NCBI GenBank assembly: GCA_002786855.1
Contig: PCUU01000026.1
Span: forward strand, 1 to 64,000
From: Cytophagales bacterium CG12_big_fil_rev_8_21_14_0_65_40_12
GTDB taxonomy: Bacteria > Bacteroidota > Bacteroidia > Cytophagales > Cyclobacteriaceae
DNA length: 64,000 bases
Reading direction: 5' to 3'
A model generated the notes under the pieces. The model was not told where the DNA came from. It made no database searches and saw only the letters and a list, made by a program, of their open reading frames with translations. Below are positions 1 through 63,039 of this stretch, piece by piece. The stretch's first letter is position 1. Each line of letters starts with the position of its first letter. A program made the position numbers and the translations under genes.

Positions 1-93
1 TATCAGTTATCAGTTATCAGTTATCAGTTATCAGTTATCAGTTATCAGTTATCAGTTATCAGTTATCAGTTATCAGTTATCAGTTATCAGTTA
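1..93. repeat. Tandem heptamer array (TATCAGT), about 13 copies, cut by window start
   Basis: Perfect 7-bp periodicity from base 1 to 93. Confidence 0.98.
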
Positions 94-172: not shown

Positions 173-1387
173 CTACCTCAGTTTAAGCGTAGCAAGCGTG
201 ATGATTGCGAGCAGTATGCCTACAATCCAAAATCTCGTTACAATTTTTGCTTCTGGTATTTCCATTTTTTGATAATGATGGTGAAGCGGAGACATCCTGA
301 AAATCCGTCTTCCTTCTCCATATTTTTTTCTAGTGTATTTGAAATAGCTTACCTGAATGATCACTGATAAATTTTCAACGACAAAAATTCCACACAACAC
401 AGGAATCAAAAGTTCTTTACGAAGTACCAATGCCAATACAGCAATGATTCCGCCCAATGACAGGCTGCCTGTATCTCCCATAAATACCTGTGCTGGAAAT
501 GAGTTGTACCACAAAAAGCCTACACAAGCACCGACAAAAGCAGTACAAAAAATTACCAGTTCCCCTGAATATGGGATGAACATGACATTGAGGTAATCTG
601 AGAAAATAGCATTACCAGAGATGTAGGCAAAAATGGCCAAGGCCAATCCAATTATGGCTGATGTTCCCGCTGCCAATCCGTCAATTCCATCTGTGATATT
701 CGCACCATTTGAAATGGCTGTCACAAAGAAAATCACCACCAAAATATAGATGGCGGCAGTGATCCATTCATTGTCTGTTGGGTTAAAGCTATCGTAATCA
801 AGTTCGTTGTCCTTAACAAAAGGAATTGTGGTGGTGGTGGATTTACTATCAGTATATGTAATAGCTTGATCGGCAGAAATACTTTGCTCTTGTTGAACTG
901 GTGTAAATTCTCTTACCACAACATCATCATTGAAGTAAAGCACCGCTCCTACAAAAAGGCCGATTCCTACTTGACCTACAATTTTGAATCGACCAGCTAA
1001 TCCTTCTTTGTTCTTTTTGAAAACCTTGATATAATCATCCAAGAATCCAATAGCTCCTAATCCAATTGTAGTGACTAGTAAGAGTATTACATAGATATTC
1101 TCCAGCTTCGCGAAAAGCAGGGTAGGAATTACGATACCCGCAATGATGATAAGGCCTCCCATGGTTGGAGTTCCCTTCTTCTGCATTTGACCTTCTAAGC
1201 CAAGATCTCTGATGCTTTCCCCCACTTGCTTTTTGCGGAGCATATTGATCAAATTCTTACCAAACGTAATGGTAATGAGCAAAGACAGCAATGTAGCCAT
1301 ACCCGCCCTGAAGGAGATATACTGGAAAACACCAGCTCCAATCAGGTCAAATTCTCTATCTAAATAATCAAATAGGTAGTATAGCAT
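173..1387 (-). CDS. mraY: Phospho-N-acetylmuramoyl-pentapeptide-transferase
   Basis: 404 aa multi-pass protein with MraY motifs ([16 protein letters not shown], [39 protein letters not shown]); dcw context. Confidence 0.97.
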
Positions 1388-40111: not shown

Positions 40112-40636
40112 ATGTTATTGGCTGAGAAGAAAAAACAACAGAATCTTTCCGAATACATCATCTATATGTATCAAACCGAGGCTTTGTTAAGGAGTTTCGA
40201 TTTAGACATAGCGCAAATTAAAGCAAGGGTGATCGACAATATTCCTCGTAAAAGTCTTAATGATGAAGGAAAAGCAGCACTTTTAGATTGGTATCGGGGG
40301 ATTATTTCTGAAATGAAATCTGAAAATCTTGAAAAAGAAGGACATTTAAGTTTTGTGCAATCAGAAGTAAAACGCCTTTCAGACCTCAGTCTTCAATTAC
40401 AAGTGGAAGATGAAAATTACAGAGTGCTTTTCAATCGAGCTCGCCCTGCCATCCGAGCTTCCATTGTTGAATCCGAGGGATTGATCAACGACCCTATCCA
40501 AGCTTGCCTCAATGGTGTTTTTGGTTTGCTCTTGGCTCGCCTAAATGGTAAAGAAATTATGGATGAAACCCTAGCACAGCTAGATCACTTCGGGAATGTG
40601 CTTTCGTATTTGTCGGTGAAGGTTAGGGGTAATTAG
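40112..40636 (+). CDS. DUF4924-like protein of unknown function
   Basis: 174 aa intact ORF (LLAEKKKQQNLSEYIIYMYQTEALLR) resembling Bacteroidetes DUF4924 proteins. Confidence 0.7.
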   Translation: MLLAEKKKQQNLSEYIIYMYQTEALLRSFDLDIAQIKARVIDNIPRKSLNDEGKAALLDWYRGIISEMKSENLEKEGHLSFVQSEVKRLSDLSLQLQVEDENYRVLFNRARPAIRASIVESEGLINDPIQACLNGVFGLLLARLNGKEIMDETLAQLDHFGNVLSYLSVKVRGN

Positions 40637-40639
40637 TTG

Positions 40640-40748
40640 ATCAGGGAATCAGGAGATCAGGGAATCAGGGGATCAGGGGATCAGGGGATCAGGGGATCAG
40701 GGGATCAGGGGATCAGGGGATCAGGGGATCAGGGGATCAGGGGATCAG
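40640..40748. repeat. Tandem octamer array (GGGGATCA), about 13 copies
   Basis: 8-bp periodicity; begins 3 nt after the stop codon of the preceding CDS; the first three units are variant. Confidence 0.98.
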
Positions 40749-40900
40749 TTAGTGAGTCTTTTCGAAAAACTTGAGTTCCCCTTTTGCCATTTTCCACTCA
40801 ATTATATTTCCGATTCACGCAACAACGTTTATACTCTTTACTGACTCCTGATCACTAATAACTGATCCACTAATCAACCAATTCACTAACAACTAATCAA

Positions 40901-41710
40901 CTACTTCCCAAAAGGAGAATCAGGTTCTTTAGCGAAAACATTGAATACGATCTTGTCCATTCGGGCGGGTATCCATTTATTTAAGAAAACGGCCATTTTA
41001 CCTTGGGCGGTTAAGACTAAATCACGCTTTCGTTTTTGAATTCCTTTGATGATCGCCAAGGCTACTTCATCGGCTGTCATCATTTTTTCTTCATCGCGAG
41101 GCGAATCTCCTTGCGAAGTGCCATCTGCCGTAAGTGCAGCATTTCGAATATTTGTACCCGTAAAGCCAGGACAAGCCACTAAAATATGCACTCCGCGATG
41201 CATCACTTCGGTACGTAGCGATTCAAAAAAGCCATTCATCGCATATTTAGAAGCAGTATAAGCGGTTCGAGCAGGCGTGCCTCTGTAACCGTTAATTGAA
41301 GAAACCCCAACAATGGACCCTTTGGTTTTCAAAATTTCTGGCAAGCAATATTTTGTGGCGTATAATGTGCCGTAGAAGTTAATATCCATCACTTTTTTGA
41401 AGACATCAAGTTCAATCTCCTCGAAGAGGGCACGCATGGAAATACCTGCATTATTGATGAGGATATCAATTTTACCGAAAGCCTTAAGGGTTTCAGAAAC
41501 CATCAATTGGGTGTCCTTTTCATTGGCCACATCCAATCTCAAACAAAGGTTTGGTACTTTATGGGCATCGAGAATTTGGCCCACTTCATTGAGCCTTGCT
41601 TCATTCCTACCTGTAATGACCACTTTGGCCCCCAGCTTTCCCATTTCAATGGCCAAGGATTTACCAATTCCAGAAGAAGCTCCAGTGATAATAACTACTT
41701 TGTTTTTCAT
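40901..41710 (-). CDS. Short-chain dehydrogenase/reductase
   Basis: ITGASSGIGKSLA, NNAGIS, YTASKYAMNG. Confidence 0.95.
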   Translation of the reverse strand: MKNKVVIITGASSGIGKSLAIEMGKLGAKVVITGRNEARLNEVGQILDAHKVPNLCLRLDVANEKDTQLMVSETLKAFGKIDILINNAGISMRALFEEIELDVFKKVMDINFYGTLYATKYCLPEILKTKGSIVGVSSINGYRGTPARTAYTASKYAMNGFFESLRTEVMHRGVHILVACPGFTGTNIRNAALTADGTSQGDSPRDEEKMMTADEVALAIIKGIQKRKRDLVLTAQGKMAVFLNKWIPARMDKIVFNVFAKEPDSPFGK

Positions 41711-61781: not shown

Positions 61782-62524
61782 TCAAAGCACTTATAGTTGA
61801 TGACGAAAAATTAGCCCGAGATATTATCAAGGCCTATTTGAAAAACTTTGCTCAAATCGAAGTGGTTGCAGAATGCGCTGATGGTTTTGAAGGTTTAAAA
61901 TCTATTCAAGAGCATAAGCCAGATTTACTCTTTTTGGACATTCAAATGCCAAAAATTACGGGTTTCGAATTGCTCGAACTCATTGAAAATCCTCCTGTGG
62001 TTATTTTCAGCACTGCCTTCGATCAATATGCCATTAAAGCTTTCGAACTCAACGCTACCGACTATTTACTAAAGCCTTATGCCGAAGAGCGATTCAAAGG
62101 AGCAGTTCAAAAGGCGGTTAACAAAATTGAAAGCCATGTACCCGCCCAAGCCGAAATTGAAAAGCTTACCGAAAAACGCGAGGAGTTGGCCGAAGGTATC
62201 GACCGAATGGTGGTAAAAACAGGCAATAAAATCCACATTCTTGGTTTAGATCAAATCACCCATTTCGAAGCGCAAGATGATTATGTAGCTATTCATTCTA
62301 CCCAAGGAAAATTTTTGAAGCTATTGCGCATGAAGCATTTAGAGGACAATCTTCCTCAAACTGAATTTATCCGCATTCATCGTTCTCATATCGTGTCTAT
62401 CAAGCATATTGAAAAGCTCGAACTTTACGAAAAAGACAATTACTTACTTAGCCTTAAAAATGGAGTTCAACTGCCTGTAAGCCGCAATGGGCATGCTAAA
62501 CTGAAAGAGGTTTTGAAGTATTAG
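61778..62524 (+). CDS. LytTR family response regulator
   Basis: Receiver domain (DDEK, LLFLDIQMP) and LytTR domain (FIRIHRSHIVSIKHIEKLELYEKDNYLLSLKNG). Confidence 0.95.
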   Translation: MIKALIVDDEKLARDIIKAYLKNFAQIEVVAECADGFEGLKSIQEHKPDLLFLDIQMPKITGFELLELIENPPVVIFSTAFDQYAIKAFELNATDYLLKPYAEERFKGAVQKAVNKIESHVPAQAEIEKLTEKREELAEGIDRMVVKTGNKIHILGLDQITHFEAQDDYVAIHSTQGKFLKLLRMKHLEDNLPQTEFIRIHRSHIVSIKHIEKLELYEKDNYLLSLKNGVQLPVSRNGHAKLKEVLKY

Positions 62525-62562
62525 TCGGGAGTCGGGAGTCGGGAGTCGGGAGTCGGGAGTCG
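62523..62562. repeat. Tandem heptamer array (AGTCGGG), about 5.7 copies
   Basis: Perfect 7-bp periodicity starting within the TAG stop of the LytTR gene. Confidence 0.97.
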
Positions 62563-62736: not shown

Positions 62737-63039
62737 ATGAAAATCGAGCAAAAACAGCTAGACGAAATTATACAACTCTGTGCTTCAAATAGGGTAAGAT
62801 CACTTTCTGCTTTTGGTTCGGTAACTAGAGAAGATTTCAATGATCAATCAGACATCGATTTATTGGTTGATTTTGAAGAAGAAGATCCTTACAAGTACAC
62901 AGACCTCTACTTTAACCTAAAAATGAAACTTGAGAAGTTGTTAAAAAGAAAGGTTGATTTAATTGAGGAGAGAGGCATAAAAAATCGCCTATTCAGAAGC
63001 CAATTAGAAAAGTCGAAAGTTCAAATTTATGGATTATAG
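62737..63039 (+). CDS. mntA: MntA-type minimal nucleotidyltransferase antitoxin
   Basis: SAFGSVTREDFNDQSDIDLLVDF (GSxxR...DxD) and C-terminal MNT features. Confidence 0.88.
   Translation: MKIEQKQLDEIIQLCASNRVRSLSAFGSVTREDFNDQSDIDLLVDFEEEDPYKYTDLYFNLKMKLEKLLKRKVDLIEERGIKNRLFRSQLEKSKVQIYGL

Follow-up and report, generated by a model that had tools for sequence, protein, structure and literature searches.

A small dispersed intergenic repeat family with differing heptamer and octamer cores in four sister Roseivirga species

Two arrays with a common flank

The DNA analysed here (the window) covers 64 kb at the start of contig C69 in the draft assembly of Cytophagales bacterium CG12_big_fil_rev_8_21_14_0_65_40_12 (4.06 Mb, 99 contigs). 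The tandem arrays at positions 1-93 and 40639-40748 belong to one small dispersed intergenic repeat family that is specific to four sister Roseivirga species. Although the units of the two arrays differ, both adjoin a shared flank of about 40 nt. Its minus-strand consensus is GGGAACTCAAnTTyCTGAAAAAAnTCnGCnTTAAC, obtained by aligning spacers of this genome (own) and of the sister species labelled G001, G002, and G005. The comparison set consisted of 18 further Roseivirga genomes; in a comparison of MraY, the closest named relative of the own genome is Roseivirga echinicomitans (90%). Gene names are based on Pfam for mraY, murD, trpF, the short-chain dehydrogenase (SDR), DUF4924, and the LytTR regulator, while the labels trpC, S1-domain, phasin-like, and permease are my own reading of the sequences.

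The original prediction, made from the letters of the window, had noticed that the two arrays are followed by the same 13-mer, AACTTGAGTTCCC, and by weaker similarity beyond it. The 13-mer matches exactly on the plus strand at 112-124 and 40768-40780 and occurs nowhere else in the 4.06-Mb assembly; it is thus found only beside arrays. The weaker similarity proved to be real. A covariance model of the flank (R1) found three to six copies per genome in the own genome, G001, G002, and G005, and none that was convincing in the other 15 Roseivirga genomes. Since this model had the window copies in its training set, a second profile hidden Markov model (HMM) was built from nine copies of other species, leaving out every own-genome, mraY, and 40.6-kb-locus copy. 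In sampled stretches of the own genome (about 1.17 Mb, also used for the spacer statistics below), the left-out profile ranked the flanks of mraY (E 2.8e-5), trpC (E 0.012), and the 40.6-kb locus (E 0.096) first, second, and third, and the next match had an E-value of 0.53.

The flank ranked second belongs to a further TAACTGA array, between trpC and trpF (C70:2792-2918); the match there has 78% identity across 67 nt beyond the array itself (E 8e-8 in a search of the 1.17 Mb). A genus search with this spacer led to further flank spacers in G001, G002, and G005. In total, the whole-genome and genus searches gave 16 strong and about three weaker copies, nearly all of which enter arrays with differing units, and not the merely coincidental matches that would have spoken against a family. 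With a plain flank-only pattern, 15 matches were obtained in the four species, one of them a probable chance match and 14 in spacers; in 12 of the 14, about two or more array units follow, in one the contig ends within the flank, and in the last there is no array. A scan of 119 genomes of the bacterial family gave matches in the own genome and in one genome of another genus, where the match was weak and was not counted because no array lies behind it. No flank match was found in Rfam (up to E 0.5) or in searches of plasmids and viral contigs, and an 11-mer over-representation analysis of the first 400 kb of spacers gave nothing strong. Wherever the orientation was checked, the flank is read in the same direction as the gene before it, and the distance from that gene's stop codon is mostly 46-136 nt. 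Operons, mraY-murD and trpC-trpF among them, hold several of the copies.

In the window, the mraY gene (173-1387, minus strand) is followed on its own strand by words of the GAAGACC type and then AGTTGATCAGAAAGCAG (132-172), by the flank GGGAACTCAAGTTCCTCAAAAAAATTCCCCTTAAC (86-133; covariance model E 1.5e-12 as a training copy), and by the (TAACTGA)n core at 1-93, which Tandem Repeats Finder (TRF) reports as TATCAGT x13.3. This array is cut at the contig end and continues on contig C48, where the matching half stands before murD; thus the array fills the mraY-murD spacer. The same spacer is short in most of the more distant species. The second copy lies between an SDR gene (40901-41710, minus strand) and a convergent DUF4924 gene (40112-40636, plus strand). 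Behind the SDR stop codon come degenerate words, TTGATTAGTTGTTAGTGAATTGG to GATCAGGAGTCAG (40838-40900, minus strand), the flank GGGAACTCAAGTTTTTCGAAAAGACTCACTAACTGAT (40744-40789, minus strand; covariance model E 1.8e-9, also a training copy), and the octamer core (CTGATCCC)n at 40639-40748 on the minus strand, a right arm adjoining the DUF4924 stop codon. TRF gives this array as GATCAGGG x13.8, and the plus strand reads (GGGGATCA)n. The exact TAACTGA unit occurs in direct repeats at window positions 1-93 and on contigs C70 and C14, not in the 40.6-kb copy. A short palindrome of the CCCGAAGTATCGGG type recurs between the post-stop words and the flank in several spacers (L153, after mraY; L292; L025).

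Exchange of the tandem core

The units found behind the flank are TAACTGA, TAACCGA, TACCTGA, TTACCTGA, TTAACCC, TAACTCC, CTGATTC, and CTGATCCC. Three orthologous spacers retain the flank but differ in the unit between species. At the SDR locus, the unit is CTGATCCC (8 nt) in the own genome and CTGATTC (7 nt) in G005, where the contigs break inside the array on both sides; G001 has two units and G002 has none. Between an S1-domain gene and its convergent phasin-like neighbour, G001 has TTAACCC x8 and G002 has TAACTCC x5. Behind an ABC-type permease gene, the unit is TAACTGA in G002 and TTACCTGA in G005. The original prediction of one dispersed element with a core that differs between loci is therefore partly supported: several non-homologous loci share the conserved flank before different cores, and the units differ even at orthologous spacers. 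The abundance it implied was not found, as the family has three to six copies per genome in four species only, and one of its three arrays does not belong to the family (see the last section).

Single copies of amplified words were also observed. G002 has a single CCCTTAAC, the word that is amplified in G001, and G001 has single GGGGAATCAGGGGTCAGG words where the own genome and G005 have amplified GGGGATCA and GGAATCA. Since a word amplified in one species is a single copy in the other at two orthologous spacers, these few loci point to growth of the arrays from local words rather than to the import of a finished array.

Proposed explanation

It is likely that these sequences form a small dispersed 3′-spacer repeat family of the four sister species, and that local words give rise, through slippage in place, to a tail that is regrown at each site. 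Read on the strand of the preceding gene, a copy is laid out as the stop codon, degenerate 7- or 8-nt words of the AGTTGATCAG type, the flank, and the tandem array. The flank of about 40 nt has an A-run and a weak hairpin of the GGGAA-CTCAA-TTCTC type and ends with TTAAC(TGAT); it may be the stable, dispersed part. Replication slippage would amplify any 7- or 8-nt word at or near its TTAACTGAT end; with whichever local word being amplified, the unit would come to differ by locus and by species. The flank itself may have spread by copying between word-sharing spacers, through template switching or gene conversion, or it may have moved as a small non-autonomous cassette. As to function, I favour a dispersed repeat that is possibly neutral and has a tail grown by slippage.

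Several points weigh against this explanation. Neither an enzyme nor a target duplication nor a sharp left boundary was found, which leaves mobility unproven; no transposase or target-site duplication was seen in the spacers or in the empty mraY-murD sites, no genome-wide search for them having been made. The small flank hairpin forms in 82% of cells, but its covariation does not exceed that of shuffles. The copy number is low, and the left-out E-values of the trpC and 40.6-kb flanks (0.012 and 0.096) are modest when taken singly. The training copies share ancestry, and some share loci among themselves. In addition, several arrays end at contig ends, so that the unit numbers there are not true totals. 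As for the function of the hairpin, an intrinsic terminator was rejected because A, not T, follows it on the sense strand.

The loci at which sister species have grown unlike repeats of 7 or 8 nt behind one and the same flank provide a natural test set. They make it directly testable why bacteria favour 7-nt repeats and how the units arise.

Alternative explanations

Is the common 13-mer a chance match between two independent heptamer arrays, with no family behind it? If two mismatches are allowed, the 13-mer should occur about twice per window by expectation, and the 40.6-kb flank alone has no significant BLAST match in the sampled genome. However, the first three ranks of the left-out profile (which in my view refute this idea), the 16 strong copies in four species, and the conservation at orthologous loci make such a coincidence hardly credible. 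Another explanation is that the flank is a functional signal of 3′-untranslated regions or leaders, conserved by selection at several operons, and that the arrays are incidental slippage products alongside it. The constant orientation with the preceding gene where checked, and the copies within operons such as mraY-murD and trpC-trpF, would be expected for such a signal. Yet it is absent from 15 other Roseivirga genomes, it has no Rfam match, its hairpin lacks covariation support, and the neighbouring genes have no shared function; I consider this explanation improbable.

The spacers may instead resemble the intervening sequences (IVSs) of 23S rRNA. In that case, inverted arms of heptamer words would enclose either a four-helix-bundle gene (IVP, PF05635) or the flank of 40 nt, the arms would form a stem once transcribed, and the flank elements would be relatives that lack an open reading frame (ORF). 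Throughout the genus, short spacers separate the IVP genes from the genes on either side. Their arms were scored by comparing upstream words with the reverse complements of downstream words at the same locus. The scores are locus-specific: 15.2 versus 9.2 for mismatched pairs at 23 loci and, at 30 further loci from other species, 14.2 versus 9.1 (P below 2e-4 for each set by permutation), and the arms match better within a species than when swapped between orthologs (P 0.006). Moreover, flank elements and IVP genes occupy the same spacers in different species. At mraY-murD, the own genome, G001, and G005 have a flank element, and an IVP gene takes its place in G002 and G010; at trpC-trpF, a flank element is present in the own genome, G002, and G005, and G016 and G018 have an IVP gene instead. 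The own trpC-trpF and 40.6-kb spacers fold into long hairpins in which the words on the left pair with the array (z -6.5 and -4.4). On the other hand, most other copies fold no better than shuffles; the trpC-trpF spacer of G005 folds less strongly (z -3.8), and six others do not clearly fold. For the flank elements, the comparison of arms gave no locus specificity (11.6 versus 11.8 for mismatched pairs), and no sequence common to the flank and the IVP genes was seen. An IVS-like origin of the flank elements thus appears unlikely. A broader proposal would be that Roseivirga has self-renewing intercistronic cassettes that behave as IVS-like elements and move from one operon spacer to another. 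Their inverted arms of heptamer or octamer words would be re-invented in each species, with left and right arms co-varying, and would enclose either a noncoding module of 40 nt or an IVP gene. I regard this as a speculative suggestion with a small, though real, chance of being right. The findings at these loci also link heptamer repeats to the four-helix-bundle IVP genes, whose spread is unexplained.

Locus-specific inverted heptamer or octamer words accompany IVP genes in operon spacers that include ftsA-ftsZ, suf, trpE-trpG, and metF (L315-L340 and L342-L371; PF05635 loci of 14 Roseivirga genomes). In a Fulvivirga genome, an apparent IVP-like gene lies behind mraY after heptamer-like words, TAAGAATTATGAGTTACGATTTAAG (L106, position 3706 on).

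Comparison with known repeats

Repetitive extragenic palindromic sequences and bacterial interspersed mosaic elements (REP/BIME) are small dispersed extragenic mosaics with palindromic parts. The flank family resembles them in being a small, dispersed, extragenic mosaic with palindromic parts, but differs in its low copy number, its tandem core, and the lack of a conserved palindrome pair.

TAACTGA repeats have been described in Beggiatoaceae, Cyanobacteria, and Bacteroidetes (MacGregor 2015, PMC4679880). According to the sections of that article drawn on here, they often precede start codons, their arrays are long in some Bacteroidetes, and related heptamers are rarely repeated in the Beggiatoaceae genome studied. 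The heptamer is identical to the one found here, and both sets share the intergenic location, contigs that break in the repeat, and further heptamers in the same spacers; in contrast, those sections report neither a conserved flank nor an exchange of units at one. G-rich heptamers, GGGAATC in Xanthomonas and GGGGA(C/T)T in Nostoc, lie near stop codons on the sense strand (Rehm 2015, PMC4692102). The (GGGGATCA)n array at 40.6 kb and the (GGGAGTC)n array at 62.5 kb fit this placement, and in both studies the unit and the length vary between related genomes. That study dealt with a single unit family per genome and reported no shared flank; many unit families and an octamer are present here. In the IVSs of 23S rRNA, for example in Coxiella, an S23/IVP ORF is accompanied by an inverted terminal stem (PMC4990558). 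The Roseivirga IVP cassettes likewise have inverted termini around a four-helix-bundle ORF; they differ in lying between protein genes and in having arms of degenerate heptamer words. The flank element, for its part, lacks an ORF.

Arrays of heptamers are therefore a known kind of repeat, TAACTGA arrays in Bacteroidetes included (PMC4679880, PMC4692102), and to this extent the original remark that no described Bacteroidetes element of this type was known has to be qualified. The part for which no description was found is the conserved flank with an exchangeable core; a literature search that lacked most subscription journals gave no report of it.

Other arrays in the genome

In the spacers of the own genome, runs at lag 7 number 22 (0 in shuffles) and runs at lag 8 number 4 (0 in shuffles), while lags other than multiples of 7 or 8 reach at most one or two runs. 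Only lags 7 and 8 and their multiples are clearly above shuffles, and the genome thus has an excess of heptameric simple sequence repeats. Arrays of 7 or 8 nt, with many different units, are present in 24 of the 558 spacers. Half of the 20 testable arrays lie within 15 nt of a stop codon (5.6 expected; P 0.01, a modest excess). Different heptamer arrays are also chained head to tail in a single spacer (L005:15539-15660; L198:18431-18486), as in AATTCGT x3.7 running into GCCTAGT x4.6. The idea that arrays generally serve to supply stop codons in every frame was dropped because the GAAGACC and AGTCGGG units contain none.

The third array of the window, (AGTCGGG)n at 62523-62562 on the plus strand (TRF, x5.7), overlaps the stop codon of a LytTR regulator gene. 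It is a repeat of the same kind that lies outside the flank family, having no R1 covariance-model match and being absent from the list of the left-out profile. The resemblance of its T-rich flank to that of the first array, as originally proposed, was rejected, since there is no match to the flank model. Behind this array, a small ORF at 62737-63039 is nucleotidyltransferase-like (MntA-like by my reading).
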